Part shown: in pieces, positions 26,554 to 42,275 of the stretch | Position numbering within the stretch: position 1 is the stretch's first letter | Layout of the letters: each line of letters starts with the position of its first letter | Origin: Bacteriovoracaceae bacterium | Lineage (GTDB): Bacteria > Bdellovibrionota > Bacteriovoracia > Bacteriovoracales > Bacteriovoracaceae | DNA: 55,459 nucleotides | Direction of reading: 5' to 3' | Assembly (NCBI GenBank): GCA_947448205.1 | Contig: CANFNL010000002.1 | Location: forward strand, 1-55,459 | Program-made: the position numbers and the translations under genes | The notes under the pieces: generated by a model | Told to the model about the DNA's origin: nothing | Database searches by the model: none | The model's input: only the letters and a program-made list of their open reading frames with translations

Positions 26554-26883
26554 TTAAAGAATATTTAATTTTTTACGGTTTGATTCAGCATATCTTTCTT
26601 CTTGCTTACCTTGAACTTCTTCAGCCGAATCTACATTTTTCCAGCTAGTTTCTTCTGGTGAATTATAGACTACTTCTTTGTGATAAAATAGTTGATCTGG
26701 TAGATAAGGTGAGTTTGTAGCGTTTGTTATTGGAGTTTCACTTCTTGCTTTTTCATCATTAGCAATGCTTGCTTCATTCTTTATGGCCTGAAGTTCCCGA
26801 ACAACCTCAGATGAACTTGCAGTATTCTTAGCTTGATAGAAATTTCTTAAAAAATTTATTCGGGTTATGCCATCTGAACTCAT
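26554..26883 (-). CDS. hypothetical protein
   Basis: A 109-residue hydrophilic protein with no signal peptide, probably largely disordered (rich in Glu, Ser, Asn). Not recognised. An AAGG sits 4 bases before the ATG. It is downstream of the MenE-MenH gene on the opposite side of a 25-base gap from its stop, on the same strand, so it could be the last gene of that transcript. Confidence 0.5.
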   Translation of the reverse strand: MSSDGITRINFLRNFYQAKNTASSSEVVRELQAIKNEASIANDEKARSETPITNATNSPYLPDQLFYHKEVVYNSPEETSWKNVDSAEEVQGKQEERYAESNRKKLNIL

Positions 26884-26908: not shown

Positions 26909-29005
26909 TTACTTGAGTAAAATGCTCATTGTTTCTGCAATTTCAGTGGGATGCGTTTTGTGAGGATTATGGGAAGCCTTTTTAATTTCAAAAATTTCAA
27001 TATGCGCTTTTGATATTGAGTTCAAATTCTCTCGGGCCAGTTTTTTATATTTAAGATCTTCTTCTCCATAAAAATAATGAATGGGAAAATGGAGTGCTCG
27101 AAGTTTATCTCTGTTTTCAGTTAACAGTGGAAGGCAGGCTTGGGAGAGAAAATTTTGTGAATCTCGCCATTCAACTAATTGATGTTGGGATTTTTTTAGG
27201 CAATGTTCTTCAAATTCATGACTACTTCTATAACGATCAAAAATTGAATTTTTATACCAATTATGTATAAAATTTAAGATGGTATCTTGATTATATCCAT
27301 CAAAAATTTTTAAATCATTTATTATTCTGTTTTCTTTTTCTTCACTACTATTTAAGCCTAGTCCAGCAGATTCAAGGGTGAGACTTTGCACTGAAAAAAG
27401 ATAGTTAAGAGCAAGGTGTAACGCCACTCGCCCCCCCATTGAATAGCCATAGAGATGAGGGGATTTATCAAAAAGAGAAATAAACTCAGAGAGTTTTTTA
27501 AATAAATCTGGTGTCGATGAAAAATTTTTAATTCGTGTCTCACCATGACCTGGAAGATCTAGAAAAAGAAGTGAGTAGCGGTTCTTTATTTTTTCAGTAA
27601 TCTCTTCAAGATCTCCTTTGTTTCCTAAAAAGCCATGAAATAAAACAAGTGTAGGAGCATTTTTGATTTGATAGTAATTGTATGAAAAGATTGATTTCAA
27701 ATAGTATTCTTTTGCTTGAATTTTCAATTCACTTCTTTTAATTTTTACTCCAAATGTCTGCATAAAAGTTGTTTCAAAAAAGTATTTAGGTACGTGATGA
27801 GGATGTAGCTTCTCTTTTAAAAAAGCTTTTAGATCATCAGTTGATAGGCTTTCATTGTTATTTATTTCAAAAAATAGACAGCCGGCTTCTCCCCAAAATT
27901 CATCTTCCAAAGAAGTTAGGTATGCCTCTTTTATTTTTGGATGTAATTTTACAGTCTCTTCAATTGAGAGTGGATTTATATTTTCTCCGCCACTTATAAA
28001 AATTAAATCAGCTCGATGATCAAATTGTAATAATCCCTCTTGATTGATAAATCCCTTATCTGAAGTTTTAAACCAGCCATCGATTAAGTTCTGACTATGG
28101 GGAGAAAATATTTTATTTTGAAAATATCCTAAACTTAATACTTCACCTTTTGTGAGAATAAATCCATCACGATCTATCTTAATTTGGCGATAAGGTAGAG
28201 CAGTTCCATTAATCATGACAAGCGATGTTGTCTCAGTCATGCCATAAGTTTCAAAAAGGGAAATATTATTAATTTTTGCTACCTCTGCTAAATCAGCTGG
28301 TAAGCAAGCTCCACCTATTAAAGTAGCTTTACTCTTTTTTAAATGCTGAATTTTGTCTGCCTCTCTAAGCCATCGCCTTAATTGCGATGGGACTAATGAA
28401 ATAAAATCAATTTGATCTGCTAAGGAAGTTGTTATTCTACCACCAGTTAAAAAGGCCCTCCACATAATCATTAATCCCCCGATATGATGATGTGGAAGAT
28501 TCATATAGGAGCAATCAAAAGAAGTTTGCTTAAAAAAATCGGAAAAGCCTTTGGCAGAATAAAAAATATTTGAAAAGGACAAGGCCACTCCTTTTGGATA
28601 TGAACTCGATCCTGATGTAAATAAAATCGTAGAACATTCACTAGAATTAACAAGTGGAAAAACTGATAATGGATCATTACTATGTTTGAAGTGTTGATCA
28701 TCAATAACGTAATTATATGCTACTTGGTTTTTTAAAATTTCAAGCGCACTTAATGTTTCTTTTGATGAAATGATCACGGCTATTTTATTATTCAATAAGC
28801 ACGCTAAGTGTGCTACGAAGTTTAGGTATGGGGATTCAAACTTAAGAGCAATAAGTTTTTCCTCATTATAATGACACTCGAGAAGTTTAGAAAAAAAATG
28901 AACGTCAATTGATAAGTCGTGATAAGATTTATCATCAAAAAATCGGGCTGAATTAAAATGATTAAAGTGGGATTTTAGATCGAGAAGTGTATTTGATTCT
29001 TTCAT
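26909..29005 (-). CDS. MenE-MenH fusion: O-succinylbenzoate-CoA ligase plus SHCHC synthase
   Basis: A bifunctional menaquinone-biosynthesis protein of 698 residues. Residues 1-~425 are a compact acyl-CoA ligase with the MenE style: P-loop ILFTSGSSSYPKGVAL, ISLVPSQLRRWL, ETYGMTETTSLV, GWFKTSDKG, ISGGENINP and a C-terminal GVKIKRSELK with the catalytic Lys. Residues ~440-698 are an alpha/beta hydrolase matching MenH: LFHGFLGNKGD, LDLPGHGET, YGYSMGGRVAL (nucleophile Ser), YFYGEEDLKYKKLA (Asp) and ASHNPH (His). MenH and MenE act two steps apart, with MenC between, so the fusion is unusual. ATG at 29005 is preferred over TTG at 29017. It lies 15 bases after dinB. Confidence 0.88.
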   Translation of the reverse strand: MKESNTLLDLKSHFNHFNSARFFDDKSYHDLSIDVHFFSKLLECHYNEEKLIALKFESPYLNFVAHLACLLNNKIAVIISSKETLSALEILKNQVAYNYVIDDQHFKHSNDPLSVFPLVNSSECSTILFTSGSSSYPKGVALSFSNIFYSAKGFSDFFKQTSFDCSYMNLPHHHIGGLMIMWRAFLTGGRITTSLADQIDFISLVPSQLRRWLREADKIQHLKKSKATLIGGACLPADLAEVAKINNISLFETYGMTETTSLVMINGTALPYRQIKIDRDGFILTKGEVLSLGYFQNKIFSPHSQNLIDGWFKTSDKGFINQEGLLQFDHRADLIFISGGENINPLSIEETVKLHPKIKEAYLTSLEDEFWGEAGCLFFEINNNESLSTDDLKAFLKEKLHPHHVPKYFFETTFMQTFGVKIKRSELKIQAKEYYLKSIFSYNYYQIKNAPTLVLFHGFLGNKGDLEEITEKIKNRYSLLFLDLPGHGETRIKNFSSTPDLFKKLSEFISLFDKSPHLYGYSMGGRVALHLALNYLFSVQSLTLESAGLGLNSSEEKENRIINDLKIFDGYNQDTILNFIHNWYKNSIFDRYRSSHEFEEHCLKKSQHQLVEWRDSQNFLSQACLPLLTENRDKLRALHFPIHYFYGEEDLKYKKLARENLNSISKAHIEIFEIKKASHNPHKTHPTEIAETMSILLK

Positions 29006-29020
29006 AAAAGCATCCAAGCA

Positions 29021-30115
29021 TCAGGCACAAAAAGGAAGCAGGCTTAATTGAATTGGGCAATCGTCTTCGCTATTTTTAAATCTTACTCCAAGTCCAATTA
29101 AGCGTACAGCGTTTCCTTTTTTTTGTAAGCAGTGTGATAAAAGGCGATGAAATTTTTCGGAATTAATGCTCAATTCCCATGCACTCGTTAAATCTGACCC
29201 CAAAGTCTCTTCGCATGAAGTTTTAGTGAAATCATTGAATTTTACTTTGATGAAAATTTTTTTTATTGTTTTCAATCCCTCATCGTCAAAATGGGACTGG
29301 AGTCTTGAAGTCAATTCCTGATAAAGCTCTTGTAATTCTAATTGTAATATATTTTCTTCACAGATATCTTTGGTAAAGGTCGTTTCAACACTTAGAGATT
29401 TTCTCTCCCAAAAACCCTGGACTTCTCTTTCATCAATTCCCATTGAGAAAAGTCTAAGATCATTTCCAAATTTACCAAAAAAATTATTAAGAATTTCTTG
29501 TGGAATTTTTCTTAAGTCATCACAGGTTAGAATTTTTAAAGACTGAAGGATTTCATTGCCCTTAGGACCAATTCCTGGAATCATTTTAACAGGGAGAACT
29601 TTTATAAAGTTATCTACATTGGCCGGAGTAATGACAAAGAGACCGTTTGGTTTTTTCCAATCGCTAGCAATTTTAGCTAAAAATTTGTTTGGCGCCACTC
29701 CCACTGAAGCAGTTAAGCCTGTTCTTTCAAAAATCTCCTGCTTAATCTCAAAGGCCATGGCAGTAGCATTATAAGTATCGCTTACGTCTAAATAAGCTTC
29801 ATCCATTGAGACAGACTCTACAAGATTTGAGTAGCGTGCAAAAATTGAATTGATTATTTCAGAGGCTTCTGAGTATTTTCTAAAATTAGGATAAATGACT
29901 ATCAGATTTGGACAAAGTTTAAGGGCGTAATCTGTAGGCATGGCCGATTTTACACCAAATTTTCGTGCAATATAATTACTGGTACAAAGGACTCCTCTTG
30001 TTCCAGGAAGCCCACCCACGGCCAATGGAACATTTTTTAGTGATGGGTTGTCCCTCATTTCAACTTGTGCAAAAAAACAATCCATATCAACATGAATAAT
30101 TTTTTTCATTTTCAT
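29021..30115 (-). CDS. dinB: DNA polymerase IV
   Basis: Error-prone Y-family polymerase for translesion synthesis. The 364 residues contain the catalytic IHVDMDCFFAQVE, the SVSMDEAYLDVS acidic pair, KFLAKIASDWKKPNG, the HhH region PVKMIPGIGPKG, and a C-terminal clamp-binding motif QLSLLPF. It starts 5 bases after the lexA stop and is presumably repressed with it; a MenE-MenH gene follows in the same direction. Confidence 0.96.
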   Translation of the reverse strand: MKMKKIIHVDMDCFFAQVEMRDNPSLKNVPLAVGGLPGTRGVLCTSNYIARKFGVKSAMPTDYALKLCPNLIVIYPNFRKYSEASEIINSIFARYSNLVESVSMDEAYLDVSDTYNATAMAFEIKQEIFERTGLTASVGVAPNKFLAKIASDWKKPNGLFVITPANVDNFIKVLPVKMIPGIGPKGNEILQSLKILTCDDLRKIPQEILNNFFGKFGNDLRLFSMGIDEREVQGFWERKSLSVETTFTKDICEENILQLELQELYQELTSRLQSHFDDEGLKTIKKIFIKVKFNDFTKTSCEETLGSDLTSAWELSINSEKFHRLLSHCLQKKGNAVRLIGLGVRFKNSEDDCPIQLSLLPFCA

Positions 30116-30120
30116 GCTGA

Positions 30121-30747
30121 TTAACTGTACGAGCGTAATAGTCCAACGAGTGTGCCAACAATTTTAAAATCTGAAATACCCTCATCAATAACAATGGGAG
30201 AGTAGTTTTTATTTGAGGGTAGAAGTTCGAGTCTTTTTTTATTTTGCAAAGAAAGGGTTTTAACTGTTGCTTCACCTTCTATGACCGCTACAACAATTTG
30301 ACCATTCCTGGCCTCTTTAGTTGATCTACAGACAATGACATCACCTTCTAGGATTCCAGCTTCAATCATCGAGTCACCTTTTACGGTGAGAGCAAAATAG
30401 CGAAAACCACCTTTTAGAAAATGTCGTGGTACAGCTATAGTTGTTGTAGGATTTTCGATGGCCTCAATTGGATTTCCGGCCGCCACCAATCCCAAAAGTG
30501 GAATTTGATCTGAATCTTCAACTTCGTGAGCTTTTTGTTGGGTTTTTATTTCTACGCCTCGGCGCTGGTTCCAGTGACTCTCTAACAAACCTTCTTTATT
30601 TAAATATTGTAGGTATTTTTGAACTGAACCAAGTGACTTTAATCCGAAATGCTCTTTGATTTCATTCTGAGTCGGGGGGTGACCGTGGTGATCATGATAA
30701 GCCAATAAATAATCGTAAACTTCTTTTTGTTTTTTTGTAAGTGCCAT
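30121..30747 (-). CDS. lexA: SOS repressor LexA
   Basis: A 208-residue repressor with self-cleaving protease domain. The N-terminal winged helix includes LTKKQKEVYDYLL, GHPPTQNEIKEHFG and LKSLGSVQKYLQYL. The cleavage site is the Ala90-Gly91 bond in LVAAGNP, and the catalytic dyad is Ser126 (GDSMIEAG) and Lys163 (EATVKTL). All expected residues are present. The gene heads a lexA-dinB unit. No Shine-Dalgarno is visible upstream of the ATG, and the predicted transcription start falls on or near the ATG itself, suggesting a leaderless message. A candidate operator lies in the promoter spacer. Confidence 0.97.
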   Translation of the reverse strand: MALTKKQKEVYDYLLAYHDHHGHPPTQNEIKEHFGLKSLGSVQKYLQYLNKEGLLESHWNQRRGVEIKTQQKAHEVEDSDQIPLLGLVAAGNPIEAIENPTTTIAVPRHFLKGGFRYFALTVKGDSMIEAGILEGDVIVCRSTKEARNGQIVVAVIEGEATVKTLSLQNKKRLELLPSNKNYSPIVIDEGISDFKIVGTLVGLLRSYS

Positions 30748-30753
30748 ATAATA

Positions 30754-30782
30754 AGGTTAAGCGTAGTATTTGCGTAAGTCAA
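30754..30782 (-). promoter_or_regulatory. lexA promoter with direct-repeat operator candidate
   Basis: On the minus strand: TTGACT, a 17-base spacer, then TAACCT. The spacer contains a direct repeat, TACGC-N6-TACGC (GCGTA at 30761-30765 and 30772-30776 on the plus strand). Repressor binding there would block polymerase. The repeat is direct, not palindromic like the Escherichia coli box or the TTAC-N3-GTAA site I recall from memory for Bdellovibrio. Confidence 0.55.
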
Positions 30783-30795
30783 CAGGAAGTGTGAA

Positions 30796-31650
30796 TTATT
30801 TTTTAATGAGGGCGCTAGCGAAATGTTTCGAATTGTGAGCGAGCTGTTTCATGTAGGGTTCTATGTCGCTTTGAAGCTCACTGGGAAGTTCGTTATATTC
30901 GATTATATGTTCGACCGGGACGTAGCGAAATGTAAAATTTATTCTTCTTGTCTCAAAGTCAGTGAGATTTAAATCAAAGACTGTTTTATTTTTATTTTCT
31001 ACCCGTTGAACCCTATGAAAGGCTCGCTCTTTAAAGAGCTCTCCTCCAAATATTTGTAGTGAAGAATCATCAAGCCATTGCTCAAAGAGGACGTTGTTTG
31101 TTAGTGATTTTTTTCCCATCACAAATTGAAAAAAAGCCCTCTCGCCAAGTGAGAGAGAGGCAACTGGGCCTAATTCAAAATCTTTGTGATCTCCCACTCT
31201 TGCCGTGTCTTCTTTTTTTTTCGTAATTGGATCAATAGAAGTCCCATAAAAATTTATCAAGCAAGTATTAAGCGTCCAGGATTTTGGAATATCTTTTGGT
31301 TTAAATTGTGTTTTTGTCAGACCTTCGATCAGCTTTAAGAGCCGCTTCAAAACTGGTGGATAGTCTTCAGCTTTTATGCAGCGATTATGAATGCCTTTTG
31401 GAGGATGATAATAATTGAGACAGGCAAATTGCCAATTTCCAAGCCAGTACACTGGTCTTAAAAGCTTTCTTTGCACGTCTTCAGGAGGGGGAGGATTGTG
31501 TTCAGAATAGCGCCATTCCCATATTGGATGAAGTGTCTTAAGCCAAGATAAAATTTCTTCTCTATCTGCTTTTTTGACAAAAGTAGGATGATAGAAAAGT
31601 CCCTCTCTTCTTATGATTTCCTTCTTAGTTTTTTTTGGTTTAATCGTCAT
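30796..31650 (-). CDS. AlkB-like 2-oxoglutarate/Fe(II) dioxygenase
   Basis: Probable oxidative demethylase for alkylated nucleic acid, 284 residues. The double-stranded beta-helix motifs are present: LINFYG, the iron ligands His155 and Asp157 in GDHKDFE, SLSLGERAFFQF, FGGELF, the third ligand His212 in AFHRVQRV, and RRINFTFRYV with the 2-oxoglutarate-binding Arg. Homology to AlkB is clear from the order and spacing, although the substrate (DNA, RNA or protein) is open. It lies upstream of lexA on the same strand, 48 bases away, so it sits within a DNA-repair neighbourhood but has no own LexA-type repeat that I could see. Confidence 0.82.
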   Translation of the reverse strand: MTIKPKKTKKEIIRREGLFYHPTFVKKADREEILSWLKTLHPIWEWRYSEHNPPPPEDVQRKLLRPVYWLGNWQFACLNYYHPPKGIHNRCIKAEDYPPVLKRLLKLIEGLTKTQFKPKDIPKSWTLNTCLINFYGTSIDPITKKKEDTARVGDHKDFELGPVASLSLGERAFFQFVMGKKSLTNNVLFEQWLDDSSLQIFGGELFKERAFHRVQRVENKNKTVFDLNLTDFETRRINFTFRYVPVEHIIEYNELPSELQSDIEPYMKQLAHNSKHFASALIKK

Positions 31651-37420: not shown

Positions 37421-37443
37421 AAAAATTGTTTAAGAAGGTGATA

Positions 37444-38259
37444 ATGCAGATACAAACTCTCGCACTAGAATTTGGGCAGCTAGTCTATTATAGAACAGGT
37501 CCAGTCGGTGCTCCGGCGCTTTTGGGTCTCTCGGGATTTGGTTGTAATCATTACAATTACATTGATCTTTTGCCTGAGTTATCCAAGAGTTTTCAAATTA
37601 TTCTTATAGATAATCGGGGGATGGGAAAATCGGGAAAAACCAAGGCTGAATACTCCCTAAAAGATGTTGCTAGCGATGCTCTTGCAGTCATTGATGATTG
37701 TAAGATCGATAAATTTGGCCTGATGGGAATAAGTATGGGGGGCTTTATTGCCCAGGAATTAGTTGCGCTAGCTCCCCAGCGAGTATCAGCTCTGGCTTTA
37801 ATGTGCACCCTTTCAAGCGGTCCTGATTTTATTCATCCGGTAAGTATTACTGAGGAAGGACTTCGTCAATTTAACACTCTTGATGTGGCCATGCGGGCAG
37901 AGTTTTCAACAATGGCGACAGTGCATCCAGAACTTAAAGAAAAATTTCCTGAGACTTATAAGCGCATTGTAAATTTACGGATCGACAATATTCCAGACCT
38001 CGAAGAGACTATTAGACAAAATACTGCAGCTGTAAATTTTATTAATGCTCCCTTTGATCTCTCAATTGTTACATGTCCAACACTTGCCATGGCCGGTGCT
38101 GAGGATCGATTTGTTAATCCAGAAAATATAAAAGCCTTTGCAAAAAATATTAAAAAAACTCAGACCGCTCTCATTCCAGAATCAGATCATTTCTTTTTTT
38201 TAGAAAAACCAGTTGAAGTGGCAGAGAATTTACACCGCTTTTTTAAGGAAGTATTATGA
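37444..38259 (+). CDS. alpha/beta hydrolase (KASIII operon, gene 1)
   Basis: A 271-residue soluble hydrolase. Core motifs: LSGFGCNHYNY (oxyanion loop in place of HG), IDNRGMGKSG, LMGISMGGFIAQE with nucleophile Ser (G-x-S-x-G), AGAEDRFVNPE with the acid and ESDHFFFLEKP with the catalytic His. No signal peptide. It resembles esterase/thioesterase-like hydrolases. ATG at 37444 follows AAGAAGGTG by a few bases; a TTG six codons upstream is less likely. Its stop overlaps the start of the KASIII gene (ATGA), so the two are translationally coupled. Confidence 0.82.
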   Translation: MQIQTLALEFGQLVYYRTGPVGAPALLGLSGFGCNHYNYIDLLPELSKSFQIILIDNRGMGKSGKTKAEYSLKDVASDALAVIDDCKIDKFGLMGISMGGFIAQELVALAPQRVSALALMCTLSSGPDFIHPVSITEEGLRQFNTLDVAMRAEFSTMATVHPELKEKFPETYKRIVNLRIDNIPDLEETIRQNTAAVNFINAPFDLSIVTCPTLAMAGAEDRFVNPENIKAFAKNIKKTQTALIPESDHFFFLEKPVEVAENLHRFFKEVL

Positions 38260-39284
38260 GTTCAATTGTTTTAAAAAAAGCTGCTGTCTGGTTGCCGGAT
38301 GGCTTTGAAGACTCAGCTTTTATATCTGCTCAAACCGGCGTTCCTGAAAAAGTTGTTCGTGAAAAAATGGGTATCGTTAGAAAATGTCGAGCTAGCAGTG
38401 ATACTCACCCTGGCGACATGGCGGTTTTAGCTGCTAAAAAAGTTCTAAAAAATATTGATCCATTATCTGTCGATATGGTGATTTGGACGGGCTCTGAATA
38501 CAAAGATTATATTGTTTGGACTGCTGGAATTTATGTTCAGAGAGAATTAGGTTTAAAGAATGCCCACGCTTTTGATATTTCTGCTCGTTGTGGAAACAAA
38601 ATTTTAGGATTGCATTTAGCTAAATCATTAATGATGACTAATCCAAATTTAAAAAGAGTTCTTCTTTGTGGAGGTCACCGCACAGGAGATTTAGTCAATT
38701 ATAAAGATCCAGGCGCTAGATTTTTAAATAATCTCTCCGATGGCGCCTCAGCAATGCTGCTTGAAAGAGGTGAGAACAATCCGCTTTTAGAATCTTCCAT
38801 AATTACTGACGGTGACTTTACTCACGATGTTCTTGTTCCAGCTGGCGGAACGAGAAATCCAACTCGCAATCATCCAGATGTTTCATTGAGCTATTTACAG
38901 GTTCCAGATATTGAAGGCATGCGCGTGAGATTAGAGCAGAGATCGATTCAAAACTTTTTAAAAGTTATTCGCGAGGCAAGTTCGAAATCAATGGATAAAC
39001 CCATAGATTATTTAGCACTTCTTCATATGAAAAAATCGGCTCACGATTCAATTTTGTCACCACTTGAACTTCAGCAAAATCAGTCGATTTATCTTGATCA
39101 TTACGGGCATTTCGGGGCACCTGATCAAGTACTCTCTCTTGGCTTAGCAGAAAAAAGAGGTTTGCTTAAAAAGGGAGATCACCTCACTTTTGCCTCCGCC
39201 GGAATAGGTTATATGTGGTCGGCAATGAGCATGCGTTGGGATGAAAATACGTTTGATACTGATGAATTAGTTGATTTAGGTTAA
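38256..39284 (+). CDS. KASIII-like 3-oxoacyl synthase, Cys-His-His active site
   Basis: A 342-residue thiolase-fold enzyme of the FabH group. The nucleophile Cys112 is in SARCGNK (FabH has Cys112 in AACSGF), and His257 is in LALLHMKKS. The Asn of the FabH triad (YGNTSAAS) is replaced: the motif reads YGHFGAPDQ with His285. The GDGA-like loop reads LSDGASAMLL. The substitutions argue against the fatty-acid-initiation FabH and for a specialised condensing enzyme. It shares its operon with a reductase, two hydrolases and an acyl-CoA ligase, so acyl chains are probably condensed here. It overlaps gene 1 by 4 bases. Confidence 0.85.
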   Translation: MSSIVLKKAAVWLPDGFEDSAFISAQTGVPEKVVREKMGIVRKCRASSDTHPGDMAVLAAKKVLKNIDPLSVDMVIWTGSEYKDYIVWTAGIYVQRELGLKNAHAFDISARCGNKILGLHLAKSLMMTNPNLKRVLLCGGHRTGDLVNYKDPGARFLNNLSDGASAMLLERGENNPLLESSIITDGDFTHDVLVPAGGTRNPTRNHPDVSLSYLQVPDIEGMRVRLEQRSIQNFLKVIREASSKSMDKPIDYLALLHMKKSAHDSILSPLELQQNQSIYLDHYGHFGAPDQVLSLGLAEKRGLLKKGDHLTFASAGIGYMWSAMSMRWDENTFDTDELVDLG

Positions 39285-39304
39285 TATTTTTTTGGGGGAA
39301 ATTT

Positions 39305-40036
39305 ATGAAGGGTCTAACAAACAAAAGAGTTTTTATTACTGGTGCTGCGAGTGGAATTGGCAGAGCAACTGCAGAGAGATTTTATGCAGAAGGAGCCGAG
39401 CTAGTTTTAATCGATATGCCAACTCTAGAGCTTGCTGAACTCAGTGCTCTTTTTCCTAACCGAATGTCTTACATCCAGGGTGATGTGACAAAAGCAGAGA
39501 CCCTATCATTAGTTAAAGCAGAAATCGATAAAGGGATCGATGTCATAGTAAATAATGCTGGGATTACTCGCGATGCAACCCTTTTAAAAATGACTGATGA
39601 TCAATGGGATTCGGTGATAGCTGTTAACTTGACTGCCATTTTTAAGCTTTCGCGCATGGCCGCTGAAAAAATGAAAGCCGCTGGAAAGGGTGGAGTCATT
39701 CTTAATGCAGCTTCTGTCGTTGCTCATTACGGAAACTTTGGTCAAACCAATTACTCTGCTACTAAAGCAGGTGTTATAGCGATGACTAAAACTATGGCAA
39801 AAGAATTAGGTAAAGATAAAATCAGAGTCAATGCTATTGCTCCAGGCTTTATCGCCACGCCAATGGTTCAAAAAATGCCAGAAAAAGTTTTAGCGATGAT
39901 GGAAGATAAAGCCTCACTAAAAAGATTAGGACAGCCCTCTGATATCGCAGCAGCCTATGCCTTTTTAGCAAGTGAAGATGCTGCTTATATCACTGGAACT
40001 TGCTTAAATGTCGATGGCGGTACCATATTAGGCTAA
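39305..40036 (+). CDS. FabG-like short-chain dehydrogenase/reductase
   Basis: A 243-residue classical SDR. The Rossmann motif is ITGAASGIGRA (TGxxxGxG). The structural NNAGITRD follows, the catalytic Ser is in NAASVVAHYG, and the YSATKAG motif holds Tyr and Lys. VNAIAPGFIATPM and the C-terminal VDGG match 3-oxoacyl reductases of the FabG type. It probably reduces the 3-keto product of the neighbouring condensing enzyme using NAD(P)H. A strong GGGGG site precedes its ATG. Its 3' end overlaps the next hydrolase gene. Confidence 0.88.
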   Translation: MKGLTNKRVFITGAASGIGRATAERFYAEGAELVLIDMPTLELAELSALFPNRMSYIQGDVTKAETLSLVKAEIDKGIDVIVNNAGITRDATLLKMTDDQWDSVIAVNLTAIFKLSRMAAEKMKAAGKGGVILNAASVVAHYGNFGQTNYSATKAGVIAMTKTMAKELGKDKIRVNAIAPGFIATPMVQKMPEKVLAMMEDKASLKRLGQPSDIAAAYAFLASEDAAYITGTCLNVDGGTILG

Positions 40037-40806
40037 AACTTAATTTTCTCATCGAAGGCATTAAAAAACGCGAGAGTGATCCCACTCTCGTTTTAGTTAA
40101 TGGGCTCTTTGCTGATCTCACTTCTTATGACTTAAGTTGTGTTTTTTTGCGAGAGCATTTTAGCATTCTTCGCTATGATTGCCGCGGACAGGGTGGATCT
40201 CCAAAGCCAGAGAGCATTTATTCACTTGAAGACCATGTCTTAGATTTAAAAAATTTATTGGAAGAAATCAATATTGATAATATAATTCTTCTGGGCTTAT
40301 CCAATGGGGGAAGAATTGCAATGGAGTTCTCCATTCGCTTTCCTAAAATGGTAAAGGCTTTAGTGGCACTAGATACTTATGATGAAGCTACTCCAATGCT
40401 TGCTGCAAAACTTAATTCATGGAAAGTTGCTCATGAAATAGGTGGCCCACTTCATCGTTTTGATGTGGCCACTCCATGGATATGGGGTGAAGAATTTTTT
40501 AATCATAAGAATGAACTTATTTTAAGTTATCGGGAAAAAGCAAGTGGGCTGAAGTCTCATGTTGTCAAAGGTCTTATTGAGGGAGCTTTGGAATCTTTTA
40601 TTGATCTCACTAAACTGGAAGTACAAACTTTACTGGTCGTGGGGAAAGAAGATTTGCTGACACCTGTTTTTAATCATGAAAAGATGATTGCTAAAATTAG
40701 AAACGGAAAATTATTAATTGTTGAAGGCGGACATGCCTCTGTCTTAGAACGACCTAATATTATGGAAAAAAATATATTGCCTTGGTTGATGGAAGTTTTG
40801 AAATGA
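40000..40806 (+). CDS. alpha/beta hydrolase (KASIII operon, gene 4)
   Basis: A second alpha/beta hydrolase, 268 residues from TTG 40000 or about 259 from a non-canonical ATT at 40027. No ATG or GTG exists ahead of the conserved region; the ATT gives a natural N-terminus (IRLKLNFLIEG) and follows GGCGG by 6 bases. Motifs: VNGLFADLTSYD, YDCRGQGGS, LLGLSNGGRIAME with nucleophile Ser, VVGKEDLLTP and EGGHASVLERP with catalytic His. It could be a thioesterase that releases the product. It overlaps the SDR and the ligase genes, so its translation is coupled to both. Confidence 0.78.
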   Translation: MLKCRWRYHIRLKLNFLIEGIKKRESDPTLVLVNGLFADLTSYDLSCVFLREHFSILRYDCRGQGGSPKPESIYSLEDHVLDLKNLLEEINIDNIILLGLSNGGRIAMEFSIRFPKMVKALVALDTYDEATPMLAAKLNSWKVAHEIGGPLHRFDVATPWIWGEEFFNHKNELILSYREKASGLKSHVVKGLIEGALESFIDLTKLEVQTLLVVGKEDLLTPVFNHEKMIAKIRNGKLLIVEGGHASVLERPNIMEKNILPWLMEVLK

Positions 40807-42275
40807 AAAATAATTGGATAAGTTTCTTAGAAGAAAATGCCCTTAAATTCAAAGATAAAACAGCTCTTATTGAACAAGCGACTAATCGTCGTTTAAGTTA
40901 TTATGATTTAAATAATGAAGTAGATTTACTTGCGGCAATTCTAGAAGATAATGGGGTTGGCTATGGCGATGCGATTGCTTTTTTAAATTCTACTAATTGC
41001 TTGCTTCATGTCACGTTAATGCTTGCCTGTGCTAAAATTGGTGCTTTATTTGTTCCACTTAATTTTAGGCTCTCTCAATCTGAAATTGAAGATGTTATTA
41101 CAAGACTCTCACCAAAGCTATACCTTGGAGTAGGTCCAAAAATTTTAAATATTGCAACTCAATACCTTGATACATCGCTAATTGATTTGAATCAAAAAAG
41201 ATTGCCTAAATCAATTCATAAATCGCAATTGCAAGATACTATTTTGATGCTCTTTACTTCTGGCTCCACTGGAATTCCCAAAGGTGTGATGTTTCATGGT
41301 GAGATGCTTTTATCTAATCAGCGAGAAACATGTCTTGGGTGGGGTTTAACTAGCGACGATGTGACTCTAGTTGAGACTCCATTCTTTCATACTGGTGGTT
41401 ATAATGTTTTATTATTGCCATTGCTTTTTTTAGGTGGAACATCAATTTTAGCCCGAAGTTTTGATGCAGATAATGTCTTCAACATGATCGAACAAGAAAA
41501 TGTTTCTGTTTATTTTGCTGTACCGACAATGTTTCAAATGCTTTTGGAAAAATCTCGTTTTCATGAATGCAATTTCCAATCTATTCGCTTTTTTATATCA
41601 GGTGGTGCTGCCTGTTCAATTCAAATGATCGAAGAATTCCAAAAAAAGAATTTAGTTTTTAAGCAAGGATTTGGTCTTACCGAAGTAGGCCCAAATTGTT
41701 TTTTACTTGATGAAAAATTTGCATTAACCAAAGCTGGATCAATTGGTCGTCCAATGCCTCATTCAAAAGTCAGAGTCGTCGATCTTGATGGCAATGATGT
41801 CTTACTTAATCAACCTGGAGAACTTTTGTTGTCTGGGCGCCATGTATGCCTTGGCTATTATAAAAATCCAAAAGCCTTTAGTGATTGTTTTAGGGATGGC
41901 TATTTTCATACGGGAGATTTAGTTCGTTTTGATGAAGATGGGTTTTATTATGTCGTTGGTCGAATAAAAGATATGTATATTTCCGGAGGAGAAAACGTTT
42001 TTCCTGGTGAAGTAGAAAAACAAATTACAGAACATCACGATATTTCTGAGGCCGTAGTCGTTGCTGTCTCTTCGCCTAAATGGGGAGAAGTTGGTTATGC
42101 TTTTTTAAAAACAGAAGCCAATATAAGTATTGAGGTTTTGAGGGAATTTTTAAATACGAGACTCTCTCGTTATAAGCATCCTCATTTTGTTAAGTGTCTT
42201 AAAGAATTGCCTCTTCTACCAAATGGCAAAGTTGATCGAAAAAAACTTAAAGCCCTGGCATTAGAGTTATTATAA
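40803..42275 (+). CDS. AMP-dependent acyl-CoA synthetase
   Basis: A 490-residue adenylate-forming ligase. The P-loop is LFTSGSTGIPKGVMF, the adenine motif is GFGLTEVGPN, and then YFHTGDLVRFDEDG, GRIKDMYISGGENVFP and LLPNGKVDRKKLK with the catalytic Lys. It looks like a functional fatty/carboxylic-acid CoA ligase (FadD/MACS type); chain length cannot be predicted. As the last gene of the operon it most likely activates the starter acid for the KASIII-like enzyme. ATG at 40803 overlaps the previous stop (ATGA). Confidence 0.9.
   Translation: MKNNWISFLEENALKFKDKTALIEQATNRRLSYYDLNNEVDLLAAILEDNGVGYGDAIAFLNSTNCLLHVTLMLACAKIGALFVPLNFRLSQSEIEDVITRLSPKLYLGVGPKILNIATQYLDTSLIDLNQKRLPKSIHKSQLQDTILMLFTSGSTGIPKGVMFHGEMLLSNQRETCLGWGLTSDDVTLVETPFFHTGGYNVLLLPLLFLGGTSILARSFDADNVFNMIEQENVSVYFAVPTMFQMLLEKSRFHECNFQSIRFFISGGAACSIQMIEEFQKKNLVFKQGFGLTEVGPNCFLLDEKFALTKAGSIGRPMPHSKVRVVDLDGNDVLLNQPGELLLSGRHVCLGYYKNPKAFSDCFRDGYFHTGDLVRFDEDGFYYVVGRIKDMYISGGENVFPGEVEKQITEHHDISEAVVVAVSSPKWGEVGYAFLKTEANISIEVLREFLNTRLSRYKHPHFVKCLKELPLLPNGKVDRKKLKALALELL

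Follow-up and report, generated by a model that had tools for sequence, protein, structure and literature searches.

A MenE–MenH fusion enzyme behind lexA and dinB in Bacteriovoracales, and its probable place in the SOS regulon

Introduction

Menaquinone (vitamin K2) is an essential respiratory molecule, and in the Men pathway that makes it the MenH step precedes that of MenC, while the MenE step follows it. One open reading frame in the window, the whole 55,459-nucleotide stretch of Bacteriovoracaceae DNA analysed here, appears to join these two non-consecutive enzymes in a single protein, and it does so directly behind the SOS genes lexA and dinB. Why should these two steps be fused, and why at this position? 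An earlier reading made from the letters alone (the sequence-only reading) had proposed the fusion and offered either SOS linkage or operon rearrangement as explanation. Our answer, to which we give a probability of roughly 75%, is that the gene, menEH, encodes a bifunctional enzyme, that it arose from an adjacent gene pair of a men operon and that it now belongs to a LexA-controlled lexA–dinB–menEH unit.

Results

A single frame carries both domains

The features of the locus are listed in Table 1. The frame runs uninterrupted for 698 codons from an ATG at 29005, with an alternative TTG start at 29017, and a short helix separates the MenE domain (residues ∼1-435) from the MenH domain (∼442-698). 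The proposed order of a MenE ligase followed by a MenH hydrolase was confirmed, the motifs FTSGSSSYPKG, TYGMTETTS, GYSMGGR, GEEDLKY and ASHNPH all being found. All three genes are on the same strand, with 5 bases between lexA and dinB and, as had been noted, 15 bases between the end of the dinB frame at 29021 and the ATG of menEH (3 if the TTG is used). No terminator-like sites were found on this strand in the gaps between lexA, dinB and menEH; a single weak match lies within lexA, and such matches are no commoner than by chance. The AlkB-type oxygenase gene next to lexA is possibly another DNA-repair gene of this neighbourhood. Directly 3′ of menEH lies a gene (26554-26883, minus strand) for a 109-residue protein without a Pfam match, conserved in the genus at 45-68% identity.

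Table 1. Features of the menEH locus, in window coordinates
Feature	Position	Strand	Remarks
menEH, fusion of MenE (o-succinylbenzoate-CoA ligase) and MenH (SHCHC synthase), by family	26909..29005	-	698 aa
MenE half, residues 1-439 including linker helix 424-439	27689..29005	-	TIGR01923 ranks first, 1.7e-65; nearest fold B. subtilis MenE 5x8f
MenH half, residues 440-698	26912..27688	-	TIGR03695 first, 7.2e-52; triad S522-D650-H679; 9/10 MenH-invariant residues
dinB, DNA polymerase IV	29021..30115	-	NF002677, 421 bits vs cut-off 256
lexA, SOS repressor	30121..30747	-	TIGR00498, 177 bits vs cut-off 111
Candidate LexA operator, TGACTTACGCAAATACTACGC	30761..30781	-	13 bases 5′ of lexA ATG; overlaps -35-like TTGACT
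AlkB-type 2OG-Fe(II) oxygenase	30796..31650	-	PF13532; adjoins lexA upstream; kept in genus

The fusion is widespread in the order

When relatives were searched for proteins with MenE and MenH in this order, both halves were found in one frame in 39 of the 129 genomes of the order, representing 13 genera, and in 13 of the 14 genomes of the source genus; the fusion is thus not a matter of chance. The named carriers are Bacteriovorax, Bacteriovoracaceae and an Oligoflexia genome, and they include the isolate Bacteriovorax sp. BSW11_IV (L109). An assembly or frameshift error uniting two overlapping genes, which would need only one mistake given the 4-base overlap of the unfused pairs and which could also explain why both states occur within one genus (g45), is refuted at the level of the whole order and has a negligible chance of being correct, in view of the independent assemblies of these 39 genomes, one of them from an isolate, and of the completeness of both halves in a constant order. 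Matches over both halves in Desulfobacterota and Spirochaetes proved to be two overlapping genes, and were rejected as examples of the fusion. Separately, a 759-residue MenE of a MED-G181 proteobacterium (L133:1071-3350), encoded behind menC, has a C-terminal stretch of ∼280 residues without a Pfam match, possibly a further MenE fusion.

Identity of the two halves

In an NCBIfam search with the whole protein, the best model was TIGR01923 (menE) for residues 29-427 (8.7e-65) and TIGR03695 (menH) for residues 450-697 (9.8e-51). The same two models ranked first for the halves taken alone, with 221.6 bits for MenE and 176.3 bits for MenH. These scores lie under the curated cut-offs of 330.15 and 208.55 bits, and on this measure both halves are therefore diverged members of their families; unfused MenE proteins of relatives likewise fall under the TIGR01923 cut-off, at 261.6 and 261.5 bits.

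Among 24 fused proteins, the adenylate-forming ligase residues S131, G132, E258, D316 and R331 are invariant, and the catalytic K421 is kept in 23. By family, the MenE half would be an o-succinylbenzoate (OSB)-CoA ligase and the MenH half an SHCHC synthase, and it is from sequence that we infer both activities. One other ligase of the window (40782-42275), the sole MenE-like protein to outscore menEH on the menE model, was considered as the true MenE and rejected: FadD-type models describe it better (383.5 and 370.6 bits, against 281.6 for menE), and its gene adjoins a ketoacyl-synthase gene. The most plausible MenE of the genome is menEH. The plus-strand region 37426-42275 as a whole encodes two alpha/beta hydrolases, a KASIII-like synthase, an SDR and an acyl-CoA ligase. 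Several genomes of the genus (L057, L059 and L066) have a comparable order.

The assignment of the C-terminal half to MenH was borne out. It groups with MenH, scoring 176 and 135 bits on MenH models against 62.5 bits for BioH, the next non-MenH family. Ten residues are reported to be invariant in MenH (Y85, S86, R90, R124, D128, W147, R168, D210, K212 and H232 in E. coli numbering; PMC3630204), and these were mapped onto menEH through an alignment to the E. coli MenH structure. Nine are present, as Y521, S522, R526, R560, D564, W583, D650, K652 and H679; the tenth, R168, pairs with K604 in a gap-prone stretch, where its conservation is not clear. Across the 24 fused proteins, no variation is seen in the triad, Y521, R526 or W583.

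A search of the genome found no second good MenH, the runner-up scoring 52.6 bits. With the competing ligase better read as a fatty-acid-CoA ligase, the genome shows no separate intact menE and menH, in agreement with the sequence-only reading. The assembly is 89% complete, in 203 contigs, so a second copy of either gene could sit in a gap. Could the C-terminal domain be some other alpha/beta hydrolase, for example an OSB-CoA/DHNA-CoA thioesterase or an editing domain of the A-TE kind? Its attachment to a CoA ligase would suit such a role, and the pairing of an adenylation with a thioesterase fold finds structural matches in termination modules of NRPSs (EntF, SrfA-C). However, the wide lead of the MenH models over the next family, the nine conserved residues and the lack of any other MenH in the genome all argue for MenH; moreover, a carrier domain is absent, and unfused homologues sit in men operons. 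We consider a different hydrolase very improbable.

Structure and pathway

The AlphaFold model of menEH (pLDDT 90, pTM 0.84) places only the helix 424-439 between the two domains. Its top structural matches are MenE structures, with B. subtilis MenE the best. The model fits the ternary-complex structures (5x8f) more closely, with an rmsd of 3.5-4.4, than the AMP-, ATP- and intermediate-bound forms of MenE, for which the rmsd is ∼11. The C-terminal subdomain of these ligases rotates in catalysis, and in the model MenH is joined straight to this rotating subdomain. Any functional weight given to that attachment is speculation.

The remainder of the classical Men pathway was found in the genome. 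A menG–menF–menD–menA cluster, with a polyprenyl synthase gene next to it, lies on a different contig; menB has a location of its own, and there is a menC-like frame for which MenC is the best model (94 bits). The proposed bifunctional protein would act twice: its MenH half would take pyruvate off SEPHCHC to give SHCHC, which a separate MenC would convert to OSB, and its MenE half would then produce OSB-CoA, the substrate for MenB. The view that the fusion joins non-consecutive steps thus agrees with established biochemistry: with MenH before and MenE after MenC, it brackets the MenC step. A complex of MenH, MenC and MenE, though hypothetical, would be a sensible rationale. The fusion is real and conserved; its chemistry is ordinary.

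Origin from a men operon

Gene order in other genomes offers a series of intermediates. Adjacent but separate menE and menH genes, placed at or near the end of a men cluster, are found in Desulfobacterota (Desulfatibacillum alkenivorans, Smithellaceae and others) and Spirochaetes; nearly all of these pairs share a 4-base overlap, and some relatives also have unfused menE–menH with this overlap. Relative G071 retains menG-F-D-A-C-E-H. In G107 the order is menG-F-D-A-C-lexA-menE-menH, which the shorter G108 contig matches from menA onward. In G001, menD-A-C is followed after ∼3 kb by lexA-dinB-menE-menH, and in G056 menC lies ∼5 kb upstream of the same four genes. The presence of lexA or lexA–dinB between menC and menE (G107, G108 and G001) accounts for the odd position of menEH and favours operon rearrangement, one of the two explanations first offered. 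In this series, the lexA(-dinB) SOS module would have come between menC and menE in an old men operon, and the adjacent, overlapping menE–menH pair left behind the module would later have become one frame.

The trees of MenE and MenH do not bear out a single origin of the fusion. They call for 7-8 changes between the fused and the unfused state, at least two of them forced by well-supported branches, as where G120 (fused) stands beside G122 (unfused); the deep branches are weak and long, and fix neither the number nor the direction of changes. On these trees each change may be a fusion or a fission. The latter two genomes belong to one genus and carry fused (L067) and separate (L076) menE and menH away from lexA, an instance of fusion or fission inside a genus.

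A candidate LexA operator of direct-repeat type

The leader of lexA contains a direct repeat, TTGACTTACGC-N5-YTACGC (a base or two of deviation allowed), which stands 5′ of lexA at every one of the 28 loci compared (the window and those of 27 relatives). It is nearly invariant in these leaders and lies ∼13 bases 5′ of the start codon. In its own genome the exact pattern occurs only twice, 5′ of lexA and 5′ of recA (C10:364-384; the recA start was read at a contig end), with a one-mismatch copy 5′ of umuDC (C26:16632-16648). In relatives it also precedes recA, umuD and uvrA. Across the order the repeat was found in 64 of 126 genomes, mostly in 2-3 copies, compared with ∼7 genomes for the reversed control. 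Genes behind the examined sites were lexA, recA, umuD and uvrA, plus a small number that were unrelated or could not be named; identities were read by eye from sequence, and the window lexA by lexA and umuD-type models. In some genomes of the genus, two tandem copies 22 bases apart stand 5′ of recA (L186, L191 and G004:C1:74737-74779).

Given its position before lexA, recA, umuDC and uvrA and the rarity of the reversed control, the TTACGC-N5-TTACGC repeat behaves as a LexA operator, and very probably is one. We also looked for an inverted repeat in the lexA leader; none was common to the genomes, the common element being the direct repeat. Reported LexA operators include TTAC-N3-GTAA in Bdellovibrio bacteriovorus and GTTC-N7-GTTC in Alphaproteobacteria (PMC8565304). 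The candidate resembles both in standing before lexA and recA, and the alphaproteobacterial site in being a direct repeat. However, with its 11-base period it differs in sequence from the alphaproteobacterial site and is not the palindrome of Bdellovibrio. No Bdellovibrio box was found near lexA; the window has one exact copy (55396), and the one-mismatch count does not exceed chance.

Is menEH under SOS control?

The other explanation first offered, SOS linkage, is supported by the candidate operator and by gene order: among 36 loci of relatives with a MenE, lexA lies upstream on the same strand in 27. In the remaining nine no lexA is close by, which means that the fusion does not depend on the SOS link. 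As the repeat is very probably a LexA operator, lexA–dinB–menEH is probably SOS-controlled. We read menEH as the last enzyme gene of this unit, with the operator in the promoter; its expression would rise after DNA damage, and a leaky autoregulated lexA promoter would supply a basal level. Co-transcription, LexA binding and induction by damage are what we infer from this arrangement.

The strongest alternative is that menEH is truly bifunctional but that its place behind lexA–dinB is a fossil of the rearrangement, with transcription from an internal, SOS-independent promoter. Adjacency can be inherited, as the lexA inside the men clusters of G107 and G108 illustrates, nine of the 36 loci lack a nearby lexA, and respiration has a constant need of MenH and MenE, which a promoter within dinB could conceivably meet. 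Against this, the genes are separated by a few bases or often overlap, with no terminator between them, the order lexA-(dinB)-menE is kept in the 27 loci, and promoter-like matches in the region do not exceed those in shuffled sequence. We therefore hold this alternative to be unlikely, though a serious contender, and retain SOS control of the whole unit as the more probable reading.

Discussion

Our literature search covered open papers and returned neither a description of a MenE–MenH fusion nor anything on LexA of Bacteriovorax. Within that literature the enzyme fusion is new, and the putative direct-repeat operator is new in being unlike the reported motifs checked. With classical, separate MenE and MenH, menEH shares domain families, catalytic residues, predicted reactions and the MenE fold, but it is one polypeptide, its halves score under the NCBIfam cut-offs, and it lies in a lexA–dinB unit and not in a men operon.

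Other fusions of Men enzymes are known. PHYLLO of plants and algae (MenF-MenD-MenC-MenH) also includes MenH (PMC2412073, PMC6189191); it has no MenE and unites the first four steps, whereas menEH combines MenE and MenH with a separate MenC between. No PHYLLO-type arrangement was seen in the menEH protein, where only MenE and MenH domains were detected. The MenY–MenI protein (HAD hydrolase and DHNA-CoA thioesterase) is likewise a bacterial fusion of non-adjacent Men steps, although its domains are unrelated to those of menEH and MenY has been proposed to replace MenH (PMC4746308).

More surprising than the chemistry is where the genome's only menE and menH lie, apparently within a core SOS transcription unit. 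A precedent for quinone genes in an SOS regulon exists in ubiEJB of Vibrio cholerae, whose expression, when measured, rose with mitomycin C (PMC5963079); those are other genes in another organism, and for menEH the corresponding induction is a prediction. In E. coli, an SOS-triggered mutable subpopulation depends on ubiquinone (PMC9239211). For Bacteriovoracales, we put at slightly better than even the fuller proposal that the LexA regulon includes the sole menE and menH through a previously unrecorded TTACGC-N5-TTACGC operator, and that DNA damage raises menaquinone synthesis, and hence respiration, together with DinB.

At this locus menaquinone synthesis and the SOS response are physically linked, and the link is conserved across the order; if the proposal is true, a single transcript shared with dinB would hard-wire it. 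The series from an intact men operon, through insertion of lexA and then of lexA–dinB, to fused genes suggests the steps by which metabolic genes were captured by an SOS unit, and the candidate operator would make the SOS regulon of this little-studied predatory order predictable.
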